Source: Nocardia farcinica (GTDB taxonomy: Bacteria; Actinomycetota; Actinomycetes; Mycobacteriales; Mycobacteriaceae). From it: DNA of 64,000 nucleotides. Positions within the stretch are counted from its first letter, which is position 1; every line of letters starts with the position of its first letter. Positions 44,993 through 58,000 of this stretch are shown piece by piece. Where the stretch lies: contig NZ_LN868939.1 of assembly GCF_001182745.1 (NCBI RefSeq), positions 1,178,001-1,242,000 on the forward strand. The letters run 5' to 3'. The notes beneath the pieces were generated by a model. That model did not search any database. It saw nothing but the letters and a program-made list of their open reading frames with translations, and was not told the origin of the DNA. The translations under genes were made by a program, and so were the position numbers.

Positions 44993-45056
44993 AAATGTGG
45001 CGTCCGGCTCAGCGGACGCGTGCGAAATGTGGCGTCCGGCTCAGCGGACGCGTGCG
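44993..45056. repeat. exact 32-bp tandem duplication over the 3' end of the tetR gene
   Basis: Two abutting identical copies (44993-45024 and 45025-45056). Each unit holds a hairpin GCGTCCG-GCTCAG-CGGACGC. The right copy contains the last codons and stop of the TetR gene; the left copy repeats them outside the gene. It probably arose by slippage and gives two terminator-like hairpins. Confidence 0.85.
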
Positions 45057-45616
45057 CCGTCGAGCACCAGGCCGACGGCTTCGCGCGGCCAGGTCGCCGG
45101 GATTTCGCCGCCGAGGTGGGTCACTTGCAGGTGCACCAGGCCGCCGAGCGCGAGCATGATCAGTCGCGGGTCGGCGGTCGCGGCGAGTTCGCCCCGGGCG
45201 ATGCCGCGCCGGACGATCTCCTCCGACGCCGAGAGCCGGCGCACCCAGAACTCCCGCCTGGCTTCGGCGACCTCGGGGTCGGCGCCGACGATGGCGGTGC
45301 CGCGGATCAGTGCCGCGCCCGACGGGGTCTCGGCGAAGCGGATCAGGTCGGCGAGGAAGGCTCCCAGGTCGGCGCGGGCGGAGCCGCTGTCGGCGATCGG
45401 GATCTCCGTGTCGATGCGCGAGAGCAGCGCGTCGAGCAGCAGTTTGGGCAGGGTTTTCCAGCGGCGGTAGATCGAGGTCTCGTGCACGCCGGCGTCGGCG
45501 GCGACATCGGCGACCCGCACCTGCTCGATACCGGCGGATTCGATGCGCGCCAGCGTCGCGTCGAGGACGGCGCGGCGCAGCCGCGCGCCGCGGAGCTGGG
45601 GGGTGGAGGACGTCAT
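45041..45616 (-). CDS. aqdR: TetR family repressor of the quinolone-degradation operon (AqdR-like)
   Basis: 191 residues. HTH at about 15-60 with VRVADVAADAGVHETSIYRRWKTLPKLL. The C-terminal domain is of the TetR_C_11-like type (RGTAIVGADPEVAEARREFW). It is divergent from the esterase gene, and one of two identical palindromes lies within its own promoter spacer, so it should repress itself and the aqdABC-like genes. A -10-like GATAAT ends six bases before the ATG, indicating a leaderless mRNA. The name rests on gene order and the neighbours, not on sequence memory. Confidence 0.75.
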   Translation of the reverse strand: MTSSTPQLRGARLRRAVLDATLARIESAGIEQVRVADVAADAGVHETSIYRRWKTLPKLLLDALLSRIDTEIPIADSGSARADLGAFLADLIRFAETPSGAALIRGTAIVGADPEVAEARREFWVRRLSASEEIVRRGIARGELAATADPRLIMLALGGLVHLQVTHLGGEIPATWPREAVGLVLDGARVR

Positions 45617-45627
45617 GCCCCAATTAT

Positions 45628-45643
45628 CGCAAGACCTCTTGCG
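45628..45643. promoter_or_regulatory. TetR operator 1
   Basis: CGCAAG-ACCT-CTTGCG, flanked by TAT and TTA. It lies directly upstream of the -10-like GATAAT of the tetR gene and shares a base with it. The same arms and flanks recur 50 bp away (operator 2), about five helical turns, so both are on the same DNA face. Confidence 0.8.
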
Positions 45644-45677
45644 TTATTGCCCACGGGGTTCTAGCGTGAAGGGGTAT

Positions 45678-45693
45678 CGCAAGTCGACTTGCG
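45678..45693. promoter_or_regulatory. TetR operator 2
   Basis: CGCAAG-TCGA-CTTGCG, again flanked by TAT and TTA. It ends 17 bp before the esterase ATG, where bound repressor would block transcription or early elongation of the three-gene operon. Identity of arms and flanks with operator 1 makes chance unlikely. Confidence 0.8.
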
Positions 45694-45710
45694 TTAGAGG
45701 CGGGAGTGGC

Positions 45711-47039
45711 ATGGACAACGTGGTCGAAGCGCCCTCGGGAGGCTGGCGCGGCGTCGTCGCGGACGGCGTGCGGACGTTCCGGGGCATCAGGTACGCGCGG
45801 GCCGAACGGTTCGCCGCACCGGAGCCGGAGCCCGCGCACGACGGCGTGATCGACGCGAGCACCCGCGGGCCGAGCGCGCCCCAGCTGCCCTCCCGGCTGG
45901 AAGCGGTGATGGGTGCGCCCGCGCCGTTCGAGCAGTCCGAGGACTGCCTGCGGCTGACCGTCACCGCGCCGGTGCGGCCGGCGCCCGGTGGGGCCGCGGT
46001 GCTGGTCTGGCTGCACGGCGGCGCCTACCTCTCCGGCGGCGGCGAATGGAATCTCTACGACGCCGACCGGCTGGTGCGGGAGACGGGCATCGTCGTCGTC
46101 TCGGTGTCCTACCGGCTCGGTGTGCTGGGCTGGCTGCGCGCGGCGGGTGTGTCCGAGGGCAATCTCGGCCTGCTCGACCAGCTCGCCGCGCTGGGGTGGG
46201 TGCGCGAGAACATCCGCGCCTTCGGCGGCGATCCCGCGCGGGTCACCGTGGCGGGCCAGTCGGCGGGCGGTCAATGCGTGGCGGCGATGGTCGGTATGCC
46301 GCGGGCGCGCGGTCTGTTCGCGCAGGCGATCGTGCAGAGCGCGCCCTTCGGTATCGGATTCCACGACGTCGCCGCGGCCGAGCGTGCCGCCGCCGTGTTC
46401 CTGGCCGAACTCGGCACCGATCCGCGCACCGCACCGGTGCCGGAACTGCTTGCCGCCCAAGCCCGCACCGCGATCCGCCGGGCCGGACCGGGCGGCCTGA
46501 ACGCCGCGCCGCCGTTCCTGCCCGTCGAGGAGACCGACGTCCTGCCGGGGCCCGCGCAATGGGCGGCCGCGGTGCGCGCCGCCCCCGTCCCGGCCCTGGT
46601 GGGCTGCACGGCCGCGGAGATGCGCGCGTTCTTCGGCGGGCCGCACCCGGTGTTCGGGCGGGTCCGGCGGATATCGGTCGCCGGACCGCGCGTGGTGACG
46701 CTGGCCGAACGGGCGGTCGGCCGAAAGGCCTTCGCGGACGGTGTGTTCCGCTTCGCCGACCTGCTCACCGACGCGGGTGCGGTGGCGCGCTGCTACCGCG
46801 TCGGCGCACTGCATCCCGGCAGTCCGCTCGGCGCCTGCCACTGCATCGAACTGCCCCTGCTGTTCGGCGACCCCGACGACTGGCGCGCCGCCCCGATGGT
46901 GCGCCCGACGACCCCGGCCGAGCTCGACGAGCTGGGTGCCCGTACCCGGCGCAGCTGGGGCGAATTCGTGCGCACCGGCGCCGTCGCCGACTGGCCGGCC
47001 CACCGGCACGGATCACGTGCCGTTCGACAGCTCCCCTGA
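45711..47039 (+). CDS. aqdA: type-B carboxylesterase/amidohydrolase (AqdA-like)
   Basis: 442 residues. Carboxylesterase type B features: FRGIRYARAERF, oxyanion WLHGGAYLSGG, SEDCLRLTV and nucleophile Ser184 in GQSAGG. The C-terminal His region is HCIELPLLFGD. In Rhodococcus and Mycobacteroides the AqdA hydrolase cleaves N-octanoylanthranilate, the product of AqdC, to anthranilate and octanoate. The gene order repressor-hydrolase-monooxygenase-dioxygenase is the same here. ATG with GGGAG upstream. A general ester hydrolase is the alternative. Confidence 0.78.
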   Translation: MDNVVEAPSGGWRGVVADGVRTFRGIRYARAERFAAPEPEPAHDGVIDASTRGPSAPQLPSRLEAVMGAPAPFEQSEDCLRLTVTAPVRPAPGGAAVLVWLHGGAYLSGGGEWNLYDADRLVRETGIVVVSVSYRLGVLGWLRAAGVSEGNLGLLDQLAALGWVRENIRAFGGDPARVTVAGQSAGGQCVAAMVGMPRARGLFAQAIVQSAPFGIGFHDVAAAERAAAVFLAELGTDPRTAPVPELLAAQARTAIRRAGPGGLNAAPPFLPVEETDVLPGPAQWAAAVRAAPVPALVGCTAAEMRAFFGGPHPVFGRVRRISVAGPRVVTLAERAVGRKAFADGVFRFADLLTDAGAVARCYRVGALHPGSPLGACHCIELPLLFGDPDDWRAAPMVRPTTPAELDELGARTRRSWGEFVRTGAVADWPAHRHGSRAVRQLP

Positions 47040-47062
47040 GCGAAGGCAGAAAGGAACCGGCC

Positions 47063-48196
47063 GTGAACCGACGGCATGCGGACGTGATCGGCGGCGGTAT
47101 CGGCGGGCTCAGCGCGGCGACCGCACTGGCCCTGGCGGGCTGGCGGGTCCGGTTGCACGAACGGCAGCCCGCCATTCGCGCCGTCGGCGCGGGAATCTAC
47201 GTGTGGGACAACGGGTTGTCCGCCCTGGCGGCCATCGACGCCTACGACGAGGCCACCGCGGGCGCGCACATCGGTCCGGCGGTGGAGGCCCGCTCCCGCA
47301 GCGGCCGCACCCTCTACCGGATCGACATCAACGGTCCCGGCGGGCCCCGCTGCTACACCCTGCTGCGCGACCGGCTGATCGCCGCGCTGGTGCGGGCCGC
47401 CGAACGGGCGGGCGTGGACCTGATCACCGAATCCCGCGCCGTCGCCGCCACACCCGACGGCACCGTCACCTTCGACGACGGCCGCACCAGCACCGCGGAC
47501 CTGGTCGTGGCCGCCGACGGCGTGCACTCCCGGCTGCGTGACGGGCTCGGCCTGACCCACCGCCGGGTGCGCATGCGCCAGGGCGCGGCCCGGCTCATGG
47601 TGCCCGCCGGGGACTACCTGCCCGCCGACGACCTGCCCAAGCACCTGGAGTACTTCCAGGGCCGACGCCGGCTGCTCTACACCCCCTGCACCCCCGAGCA
47701 CGTCTACCTGGCGCTCGTCTCCGACGCCGACGATCCCGCCACCACCGGCACCCGCCTCGACCTCGCGTCCTGGCGGCGCAGCTTCCCCGGACTGGGGGAC
47801 CTGCTGGACAGCACCGACGGCATCCCGATCCGCTGGGACACCTTCGAGTTCATCCGCCTGCGGTCGTGGTCGTGCGGGCGGGTGGCGTTCCTCGGCGACG
47901 CGGCGCACGCCCAGCCGCCCTACCTCGGACAGGGCGGCGGCACCGCGATGACCAACGCCGTCTCCCTCGCCGCCACCCTCGCCCGGCCCGGCCTCGACCT
48001 CCCCGCGGCGCTGACCACCTGGGAACGCGAGCAGCGTCCCGGCGTGGAACGCACCCAGCGCACCTCCTACCGGATGCGCCTGCTCAACACCGTGCCCGAC
48101 GCGGTGCGCGACCCGCTGATGGGGCTGCTCGGCCGCACCTCCGGCTTCGCCGACACCCAGTTGGCCGCCACCCGCCTGCGTCCGGCCTCGTCCTGA
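47063..48196 (+). CDS. aqdB: FAD-dependent monooxygenase (AqdB-like)
   Basis: 377 residues from a GTG with AAAGGA upstream. Class A flavoprotein hydroxylase: the FAD dinucleotide motif is VIGGGIGGLSAATAL, then the internal ADLVVAADGVHSRLR and FLGDAAHAQPPYLGQGG. AqdB hydroxylates 2-alkyl-4(1H)-quinolones at C3, the same reaction as PqsH of Pseudomonas, to give the substrate of AqdC. It lies 23 bp after the esterase and 26 bp before the dioxygenase gene. Confidence 0.8.
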   Translation: MNRRHADVIGGGIGGLSAATALALAGWRVRLHERQPAIRAVGAGIYVWDNGLSALAAIDAYDEATAGAHIGPAVEARSRSGRTLYRIDINGPGGPRCYTLLRDRLIAALVRAAERAGVDLITESRAVAATPDGTVTFDDGRTSTADLVVAADGVHSRLRDGLGLTHRRVRMRQGAARLMVPAGDYLPADDLPKHLEYFQGRRRLLYTPCTPEHVYLALVSDADDPATTGTRLDLASWRRSFPGLGDLLDSTDGIPIRWDTFEFIRLRSWSCGRVAFLGDAAHAQPPYLGQGGGTAMTNAVSLAATLARPGLDLPAALTTWEREQRPGVERTQRTSYRMRLLNTVPDAVRDPLMGLLGRTSGFADTQLAATRLRPASS

Positions 48197-48222
48197 CGCA
48201 TCCCGAGAAACAGGAGAACACC

Positions 48223-49041
48223 ATGCTCAACACCTATCGGATCAACGGCGTCGAGATCGGCTTCGACGATCAGGGATATGCCCCGGATCGCCCGGCCATC
48301 GTGCTGCTGCCCGGCTGGGGCCACGACCACCGCGCCTTCGACCGCATGCTGCCGCATCTGCGCCCGCACCACCGGGTGATCCGGGTGTGCTGGCGCGGCC
48401 ACGGCATCGACCGCACCCTCGTCGGCGATTTCGGTGTCGCCGAACAGGTCTCCGACACCATCGGCCTGCTCGACGCTCTGGAGGTCGAGCGTTTCGTGCC
48501 GCTCTCACACGCGCACGGCGGGTGGGCGGCCATGGACATCGCCGACACCCTCGGCGCCGACCGCGTGCCCGCGCTGCTGCTGATGGACCTGATCATGACC
48601 CCGCCGCCGCCGGAATTCGCCGCCGGCCTGCGCGCGCTGCAGGACGAGCGGACCTGGCGGGCCGCCCAGCGCGGCCTGCTCGACAGCTGGCTGGCAGGCA
48701 GCACCGACCAGGCCGTGCTCGACCACGTGCGCTACGAGGCGGGCGGTCACGGCTTCGACATGTGGGCCCGCTCCGGCCGCGTCATCGAAACCGCCTACGC
48801 CACCTGGGGTTCCCCGATGGGCCGGCTGGACAAGTTCACCGAACCGCGCCCCGTCCGCCACGTCTACTCCCACCCCAAGTCGGCCGAGTACGACGCCGTG
48901 CACGCCGAATTCCGCCGCACCCACCCCTGGTTCAGCTACACCCGCCTCGACGGCCACACCCACTTCCCGGGCATCGAACTCCCCGAGCGCGTCACCACCG
49001 AACTGTTCGACCTCATCGGCACCCAGACACCCGCGACCTGA
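48223..49041 (+). CDS. aqdC: cofactor-independent quinolone 2,4-dioxygenase (HOD/AqdC-like)
   Basis: 272 residues, alpha/beta hydrolase fold. It follows Arthrobacter HOD (1H-3-hydroxy-4-oxoquinaldine 2,4-dioxygenase) along its length: LLPGWGHDHR with Trp32/His34, CWRGHGIDR, LSHAHGGW, MDLIM with Asp122, the SGRVIE...YATWGSPM stretch, HPWFSYTRLDGHTHFPG with the general base His247. These are the dioxygenase residues, not those of an esterase: the nucleophile position is Ala97 where HOD has Ser101. It should open 3-hydroxy-4-quinolones with O2, releasing CO, as AqdC does with the Pseudomonas quinolone signal. CAGGAG upstream of the ATG. Confidence 0.83.
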   Translation: MLNTYRINGVEIGFDDQGYAPDRPAIVLLPGWGHDHRAFDRMLPHLRPHHRVIRVCWRGHGIDRTLVGDFGVAEQVSDTIGLLDALEVERFVPLSHAHGGWAAMDIADTLGADRVPALLLMDLIMTPPPPEFAAGLRALQDERTWRAAQRGLLDSWLAGSTDQAVLDHVRYEAGGHGFDMWARSGRVIETAYATWGSPMGRLDKFTEPRPVRHVYSHPKSAEYDAVHAEFRRTHPWFSYTRLDGHTHFPGIELPERVTTELFDLIGTQTPAT

Positions 49042-57592: not shown

Positions 57593-58000
57593 ATGGCTGA
57601 CCATCCCGAGGGCCGCGTGGCGAACGCGGCGCACGACATCGGAGGTTTCATCAGGGCACAGCGGGAAGCTGCGCAAGTCTCGTTGCGTCAACTCGCCGCC
57701 CTGGCGGGGGTGAGCAATCCGTATCTCAGCCAGATCGAGCGGGGATTGCGCAACCCGTCCGCGGAGGTACTCGCGCAGATCGCGAAAGCGCTGCGGGTGT
57801 CCTCGGAGGTCTTGTACGTACGGGCCGGCTATCTCGAGCAGCGGCCGCACGGTCCGGTCCGGGACGCCCTGCTTGCCGACACCTCCATCACGGAGCGGCA
57901 GAAGCAGGTGCTGCTGGACATCTACGAATCGTTCCGTCGAGAAAACGGCGAGAACGAGACAACCGACACTCCGCCACGCCAGGAGAGCGAACAACCATGA
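57593..58000 (+). CDS. XRE family regulator (Rv0474-like)
   Basis: 135 residues. HTH about 15-75: IGGFIRAQREAAQVSLRQLAALAGVSNPYLSQIERGLRNPSAEVL. The tail continues with the DALLADTSITERQKQVLLDIYESF helix and an acidic end. ATG at 57593 with AGAAGG six bases ahead is favoured over the GTG directly before it. Its stop overlaps the hbhA start (ATGA), as with Rv0474-Rv0475 in M. tuberculosis. Confidence 0.9.
   Translation: MADHPEGRVANAAHDIGGFIRAQREAAQVSLRQLAALAGVSNPYLSQIERGLRNPSAEVLAQIAKALRVSSEVLYVRAGYLEQRPHGPVRDALLADTSITERQKQVLLDIYESFRRENGENETTDTPPRQESEQP

Follow-up and report, generated by a model that had tools for sequence, protein, structure and literature searches.

A likely complete aqdRABC operon for alkylquinolone degradation in Nocardia farcinica, and related Nocardia that keep aqdR and aqdA without detected aqdB or aqdC

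The DNA analysed here, called the window, is a stretch of 64,000 nucleotides from Nocardia farcinica (contig NZ_LN868939.1, forward-strand positions 1,178,001 to 1,242,000), and we hold with high confidence that it carries a complete aqdRABC alkylquinolone-degradation operon of this species. The four-gene set very probably destroys one family of signals made by Pseudomonas. The regulator gene aqdR (45041–45616, minus strand) encodes a TetR-family protein of 191 aa with the Pfam domains TetR_N (PF00440) and TetR_C_11 (PF16859). Divergent from it on the plus strand, aqdA (45711–47039) encodes a type-B carboxylesterase of 442 aa (COesterase, PF00135), a probable N-octanoylanthranilate amide hydrolase.

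Next in the same direction, aqdB (47063–48196, GTG start) encodes a class A flavin monooxygenase of 377 aa (FAD_binding_3, PF01494), a probable 3-hydroxylase of 2-heptyl-4(1H)-quinolone (HHQ). The last gene, aqdC (48223–49041), encodes a cofactor-free 3-hydroxy-4(1H)-quinolone 2,4-dioxygenase (HQD) of 272 aa with a Pfam alpha/beta hydrolase domain. The intergenic gaps are 94 bp between aqdR and aqdA, 23 bp between aqdA and aqdB and 26 bp between aqdB and aqdC. An earlier note on this DNA had described a TetR gene divergent from an esterase, a monooxygenase and a dioxygenase at 45041–49041, and both the open reading frames and the Pfam domains agree with it. The divergent regulator, the type-B esterase, the class A monooxygenase and the HQD all stand in the aqdRABC order.

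The likeness to known aqd genes, claimed by the same note, is borne out by alignment. The proteins are 55, 57, 62 and 54% identical to AqdR, AqdA2, AqdB2 and AqdC2 of Rhodococcus erythropolis BG43 (56.5% for AqdA2 and 53.9% for AqdC2 before rounding) with identical gene order, and AqdR is 83.5% identical to its counterpart in N. amikacinitolerans. The set is not a chance assembly, because AqdC matches the M. abscessus AqdC in the PDB with an E value of 7e-120 and the same order recurs on the BG43 plasmid pRLCBG43. A closer kinship of the esterase and the monooxygenase to unrelated pathways would have spoken against the assignment, but each has its counterpart at the corresponding place of the BG43 set, and the reading was not refuted.

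The best PDB relatives of these two, judged by E value, belong to other families: p-nitrobenzyl esterase for AqdA (E = 1.4e-57) and methylhydroxypyridinecarboxylate oxygenase for AqdB (E = 1.5e-63). Aligned to p-nitrobenzyl esterase, AqdA has the catalytic triad Ser184, Glu303 and His377 and the HGGA oxyanion hole, and these are kept in all 30 aligned sequences, the window AqdA included. AqdB shows the FAD motifs GGGIGG, DG and GDAAH.

The dioxygenase AqdC shares 63.4% of its residues with M. abscessus AqdC, 58.8% with the HQD of S. bingchenggensis and 53.9% with BG43 AqdC2, and the identity falls to 39.3% with BG43 AqdC1 and 40.8% with HOD. Bearing on the helical cap domain expected of an HQD, its alignment to the M. 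abscessus structure (6ra2) is full-length, over residues 1–266. The residues Trp32, His34, Asp122 and His247 that had been picked out from the translation are indeed present; together with Trp156 they align with Trp36, His38, Asp126, His251 and Trp160 of HOD.

At the nucleophile elbow AqdC has Ala97 rather than serine, as does M. abscessus AqdC. Two further motifs, H-x(2)-W at the elbow (H98-GG-W101) and HFP-x(4)-P with the catalytic histidine (H247-FPGIELP), are reportedly HQD motifs, said to have been described by Wullich and colleagues in 2020. According to excerpts of PMC10548524, a His-Asp mechanism is described for AqdC and HOD, the elbow alanine is natural in AqdC and serine is dispensable for the ring-cleavage chemistry. 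Ala97 agrees with the view that this chemistry can do without a serine nucleophile.

An N. farcinica HQD has already been assayed. The enzyme HQD_N.f. (BAD60071.1, strain IFM 10152) was purified and cleaves the Pseudomonas quinolone signal (PQS) with a Michaelis constant (KM) of 3.1 uM (PMC8961568). When it was added to P. aeruginosa cultures, PQS, HHQ, 2-heptyl-4-hydroxyquinoline N-oxide (HQNO), pyocyanin and pyoverdine were all lowered (PMC8961568). The window genome (6.46 Mb in five contigs, coded G000) holds a single clear HQD, and the hit ranked after it is 32% identical over residues 7–145 with E of 4e-8.

By the primer test described below, the window AqdC and HQD_N.f. share the species, and the former is the sole clear HQD of its genome. 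The published assays cover the dioxygenase only. Strain variants aside, the two are very probably the same protein. Hence PQS cleavage is very probably already known for the window aqdC, given the published HQD_N.f. assay and the one clear HQD in the genome.

As to the species, a published N. farcinica target of the quantitative polymerase chain reaction (qPCR) is present twice in the genome (L060 and L061; G000:C1:3557673 and G000:C2:1467850). The probe, with one mismatch to both copies, matches one of 148 Nocardia genomes. Both primers, sought only at these two sites of the window genome, are exact beside both probe sites. Excerpts of PMC3614701 give Nocardia primers at the genus level, with none specific for N. 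farcinica among them.

Experiments on related proteins come from M. abscessus. Excerpts of PMC5332414 report that its AqdB and AqdC produced in E. coli turn HHQ into PQS and cleave PQS, and call the hydrolysis by AqdA presumptive. By homology, HHQ hydroxylation by the window AqdB and N-octanoylanthranilate hydrolysis by the window AqdA are expected. Likewise, PQS would induce the operon through the window AqdR, and the operon may have an ecological role against Pseudomonas.

The 94-bp gap between the divergent genes contains two palindromes 50 bp apart, which we propose as operators. The candidate O1, TATCGCAAGACCTCTTGCGTTA, lies at 45625–45646, and its core CGCAAGACCTCTTGCG (45628–45643) has one central mismatch pair. 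The candidate O2, TATCGCAAGTCGACTTGCGTTA, lies at 45675–45696 with a perfect core CGCAAGTCGACTTGCG (45678–45693). The 6.46-Mb genome has no exact copy of CGCAAGN4CTTGCG other than those of O1 and O2.

Promoter-like hexamers are interlaced with them. A proposed aqdR -10 element, GATAAT on the minus strand (45623–45628), overlaps O1 and stands 6 nt away from the start codon ATG; this spacing points to an aqdR mRNA without a leader. By pattern, a proposed aqdA -35 element, TTGCGT (45639–45644, plus strand), is inside O1, and a proposed -10 element, TAGCGT (45662–45667, plus strand), follows after 17 bp; O2 is just downstream of the latter. As O1 overlaps both the aqdR -10 and the aqdA -35, AqdR on O1 would block both promoters. 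In M. abscessus PQS raises aqdR and aqdC transcripts, as excerpts of PMC5332414 state, and this induction fits autorepression by AqdR and a block of both promoters from O1.

The paired palindromes are widely kept. We compared 29 aqdR-aqdA gaps: 26 from Nocardia, and one each from a Prescottella equi plasmid, Microtetraspora fusca and BG43. Two sites 45–51 bp apart are found in 29/29 gaps when the loose pattern GCA[AG]N6TTGC is used. The stricter GCAAN6TTGC holds at 28/29 loci and at 51 of the 52 Nocardia sites, and the exact CGCAAGN4CTTGCG is at both sites in 21 of the 29 loci.

The promoter pattern is equally steady. TTGC[GAC]T-N16..18-TANNNT is present at all 29 loci, and in each of them the -35 falls on the right arm of O1. 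The complement of the aqdR -10, ATTATC, is at the same place in 27 of the 29 and is replaced by CTTATC in G092 and G099. Similar palindromes thus mark the aqdR-aqdA gap in four genera.

A wider AqdR regulon was considered and set aside. The exact palindrome stands at O1 and O2 only, and sites with at most one mismatch number nine in the genome (O1, O2 and seven others) against 27 for a reversed control, so the weaker copies are not enriched. One of these copies, CGCAAGTCTCGTTGCG, lies in the window at 57672–57687 (G000:C2:1235672–1235687) and is probably there by chance, since the genome shows no enrichment. At the other end of aqdR, a 32-bp unit with an inverted repeat inside it (GCGTCCGGCTCAGCGGACGC) is perfectly duplicated in tandem at 44993–45056, and the second copy enters the aqdR 3′ end.

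In the proposed working of the operon, AqdR at O1 and at O2, the latter sitting at the aqdA start, would keep both promoters shut, and an alkylquinolone or a derived compound would bind AqdR and let both transcripts rise. AqdB would hydroxylate HHQ at C3 to give PQS. The His247-Asp122 dyad of AqdC would take the proton from the 3-OH of PQS, and ring opening after the addition of dioxygen at the oxyanion site would release CO and yield N-octanoylanthranilate. AqdA would then cleave the amide bond of the latter, with anthranilate and octanoate as products.

The anthranilate may enter a cluster of the 2-aminobenzoyl-CoA (coenzyme A) type elsewhere in the genome. At about C1:2935.6–2942.0 kb (L058 9142–15478) there are homologues of six genes that adjoin aqdA1B1C1 in BG43. 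Their identities to BG43 are 74.5% for the large CoA-ester hydroxylase/oxidoreductase, 58.7% for the thioesterase, 67.5% for the AMP ligase, 72.4% for RidA, 67.0% for the fumarylacetoacetate hydrolase-like protein and 80.4% for the cupin.

The family NF006101 scores above its cut-off once in this cluster. From these homologies the cluster is a plausible route for anthranilate, and its 2-aminobenzoyl-CoA assignment is putative. No palindrome copy with up to one mismatch is found in the surrounding stretch C1:2926500–2946000.

Among known systems, aqdRA2B2C2 of BG43 agrees with the window set in its four genes, in their order and in the divergence of the regulator. It also has a recognisable O1 (GCAAGAGAACTTGC), whereas its O2 is degenerate, and it is plasmid-borne (pRLCBG43) whereas the N. 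farcinica set is chromosomal. The second BG43 set, aqdA1B1C1, uses a different hydrolase with no match to the window AqdA. In print, aqdRABC of M. abscessus subsp. abscessus (MAB_0300c-0303) is the same gene set; compared on AqdC only, it is 63% identical. HOD (MeqE) of Arthrobacter sp. Rue61a has the same fold family and catalytic dyad at 41% identity, but it carries Ser101 at the elbow in place of Ala97 and its physiological substrate is a 2-methyl quinolone.

Sets outside Nocardia vary in content. The P. equi plasmid p1-WH99 (432 kb) carries a complete aqdRABC (L011 2793–6825) with a gene for a fatty acid-CoA ligase after it, so the set is plasmid-borne there too. Microtetraspora fusca has aqdR, aqdA and aqdC with two palindromes (L003 54–2925); only 52 bp separate the aqdA end (2066) from the aqdC start (2119), so that only aqdB is missing. 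G183, from a different genus of the family, has an aqdC homologue (L036 1214–2016; pieces 58 and 54% identical) that spans two reading frames, as a broken gene or a sequencing error. In a family sample of 401 genomes, AqdA is matched at E <= 1e-90 in 13, of which 12 are Nocardia. In the scan of this sample the hits outside Nocardia reach 53% at most, so M. abscessus is apparently not in it.

The distribution within Nocardia was surveyed in a sample of 148 genomes drawn from a larger group. Presence was called at E <= 1e-45 for AqdR, 1e-110 for AqdA, 1e-70 for AqdB and 1e-30 for AqdC, and absence means no such match. AqdR and AqdA were each found in 27 genomes, AqdB in 11 and AqdC in 13, ten of the last at 70% identity or more. 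AqdR and AqdA occur together in 26 of the 148, with both AqdB and AqdC in nine and with neither in 17.

These 17 genomes, hereafter RA-only, are G005, G007, G022, G041, G051, G061, G070, G080, G084, G087, G095, G099, G104, G109, G117, G138 and G147. Their loci, such as that of G005, have the regulator, hydrolase, palindromes and promoter pattern in common with the window but lack aqdB and aqdC anywhere in the genome at the thresholds used. Examples with both palindromes by the loose pattern are L093 7159–9166 and L095 9591–11598.

Several cases are irregular. AqdB of G127 was counted as present on a match to residues 4–244 of 377 only and may be incomplete. G025 has AqdA with mere remnants of AqdR, and G031 (85% complete) has AqdR together with an AqdA that lies in two reading frames. 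G013 bears B and C, and a contig end truncates its A. In G132 R and A are absent, and its B and C are more distant (56 and 47%). G001 and G026 show nothing beyond distant C-like matches (36 and 34%).

The chromosomal neighbourhood is often shared. Several loci, both RA-only and bearing aqdB and aqdC (BC-bearing), are located next to DsbA/VKOR in a slot that PPK2 often borders at its other end; the RA-only G005, G007 and G022 have the same slot. In G032 the slot is empty (DsbA-LexA-PPK2), and in G092, G099, G127 and G138 no DsbA match stands beside the aqd genes.

A luciferase-like monooxygenase (PF00296) was considered as a substitute for aqdB and aqdC and rejected, as in G005 it adjoins PPK2 about 4 kb from aqdA and looks like a PPK2 neighbour. 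Separately, in loci reaching 1.5 kb past aqdA, a luciferase-like gene is directly downstream of aqdA in the same direction in 8 of 27 (seven RA-only and G025). The copy in G087 is partial, an example is L096 7998–8861, and PF00296 was found in the one scanned.

The RA-only genomes fall in three places of a tree of AqdR and AqdA. The tree has 29 taxa, G025 (no AqdR) and G031 (aqdA in two frames) being left out; the support values are those of the unrooted tree, as labels near the root shift on rerooting, and the BG43 rooting is a chosen one. Fifteen RA-only genomes form a clade with support of 100, sister to the farcinica/puris group with support of 85 for the pair. The RA-only G138 groups with G028 and G043 (95), and the RA-only G099 is beside the BC-bearing G092 (100). 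The deep nodes are weak, at 45 for all Nocardia and 54 for Nocardia with Prescottella.

At the gene level, G099 and G092 share the next gene, 98% identical, which begins about 90 bp after aqdA in G099, while aqdB and aqdC intervene in G092. In the approximately unbiased (AU) test, the B and C data do not reject the topology of R and A (10 taxa, p = 0.23). The placements suggest three or more losses of aqdB and aqdC in Nocardia. Repeated loss is the simplest reading and insertion of B and C is the other possibility; independent gains are less likely, as the topology is not rejected in that test, where several nodes are weak.

What remains after the loss appears maintained. Both palindromes are kept at all 17 RA-only loci, 16 of them by GCAAN6TTGC and 12 exactly, and one base of O2 is changed in G087. 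The promoter pattern is kept in 17/17. The ratio of nonsynonymous to synonymous substitution rates (dN/dS) of aqdA, in ten chosen pairs, is 0.14–0.27 in six RA-only pairs, 0.13–0.26 in three BC-bearing pairs and 0.21 for G099/G092. By these ratios, aqdA is under purifying selection in RA-only genomes.

AqdA residues peculiar to RA-only genomes were also sought. Positions 262, 289, 304, 336 and 373, of which 304 adjoins Glu303, are near-fixed differences between the RA-only clade of 15 species and 12 comparison sequences (including Microtetraspora, with C and no detected B). Shared ancestry explains them equally well as they mark one clade, and other RA-only genomes keep the common residue, G138 at five of the five positions and G099 at four, so they were dropped as a signature.

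Probably, AqdR and AqdA also serve a purpose with no need for quinolone ring cleavage. We see an even chance that in Nocardia AqdR, AqdA and the palindromes make up an autonomous hydrolase unit under ligand control, which has persisted through three or more separate losses of aqdB and aqdC. If this is true, the inducer of AqdR is not a compound made exclusively by AqdB or AqdC. AqdA would also have a natural substrate beyond the N-octanoylanthranilate of its own pathway, which may be an exogenous N-acylanthranilate or an aryl amide, carbamate or ester.

RA-only Nocardia would either take up N-acylanthranilates made by others or use AqdA on a different substrate. Under both options, induction should be independent of AqdB and AqdC. 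In the annotation of N. gamkensis a homologue bears the name 'phenmedipham hydrolase'; it is a name only, and it points to aryl carbamates as a candidate class.

Some points weigh against the window set being a dedicated alkylquinolone operon controlled as proposed. The functions of AqdA, AqdB and AqdR here are predicted from sequence, and O1 and O2 are AqdR sites predicted from their pattern. The inverted repeat upstream of aqdR in M. abscessus, TTGTCGCATCGACAA, given in excerpts of PMC5332414, is different from them. The equation of AqdC with BAD60071.1, though very probable, rests on the species and the single clear HQD. As to the species, the qPCR probe match has one mismatch, and PMC9198645, which prints the N. 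farcinica qPCR, reports that its own assay is the more specific one.

A further such point is the presence of R and A with no detected B and C in 17 of 26 Nocardia, which suggests some other function for at least a part of the unit. It is also a ground for the rival that AqdR and AqdA are primarily an independent inducible hydrolase unit for an aryl amide, carbamate or ester, with AqdB and AqdC as accessories missing in many lineages. The palindromes, promoter pattern and catalytic triad kept in RA-only loci and the dN/dS of their aqdA, in the same range as that of BC-bearing pairs, favour it too. However, judging from the BC-bearing relatives in Prescottella and Rhodococcus, the set of four looks like the ancestral state; the role in quinolone breakdown may then have come first and the RA-only state second, and RA-only AqdA has no known substrate. 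We hold this rival as tentative, at somewhat less than even chances.

Another rival accepts the ring cleavage and doubts the target: the operon would catabolise or detoxify some other 3-hydroxy- or 4-quinolone of soil (an actinobacterial or plant quinolone or a short-chain quinaldine), and PQS would be only a good surrogate. The HQD family does include enzymes with other substrates, such as HOD at 40.8% identity, and the chromosomal slot common to several Nocardia fits long residence over recent adaptation to Pseudomonas. In excerpts of PMC7731028, Pseudomonas and Burkholderia are the primary but not the sole makers of alkylquinolones. AqdC is nearer to the PQS-preferring enzymes (63.4, 58.8 and 53.9%) than to HOD, yet the PQS-preferring AqdC1 (39.3%) is as distant as HOD. 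The low KM of the N. farcinica enzyme for PQS (PMC8961568) and the co-encoded homologues of an HHQ hydroxylase and an acylanthranilate hydrolase make this rival unlikely. That the resemblance to aqd is superficial, in a generic xenobiotic-degradation cluster of chance neighbours, is highly improbable. The families concerned (esterases, class A monooxygenases, alpha/beta hydrolases) are indeed large and common, but the one-to-one match of all four genes to BG43 in order all but refutes it, and the similar palindromes in four genera and the AU result (p = 0.23, 10 taxa) also speak against it. The operon for alkylquinolone degradation is the reading that we keep.

In kind the system is ordinary and partly known, PQS cleavage by the N. 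farcinica dioxygenase being already in print. What we did not find in print is a precise prediction for the regulator (paired palindromes with almost constant spacing, at 29/29 loci by the loose pattern) and the use of RA-only Nocardia as a natural experiment. The palindromes are not named in the excerpts of PMC5332414, and a full-text literature search for AqdR gave no other relevant report. A search on aqdA and related words brought no further relevant title among the matches listed (the best 15 of 4,639).

In summary, the compound sensed by AqdR is given in the printed excerpts as 'PQS or a metabolite thereof', and a comparison of AqdR and AqdA between the two kinds of genomes would show which one it is. 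Through the regulator sites and the RA-only genomes, the ligand of AqdR and the purpose of AqdA become directly testable.

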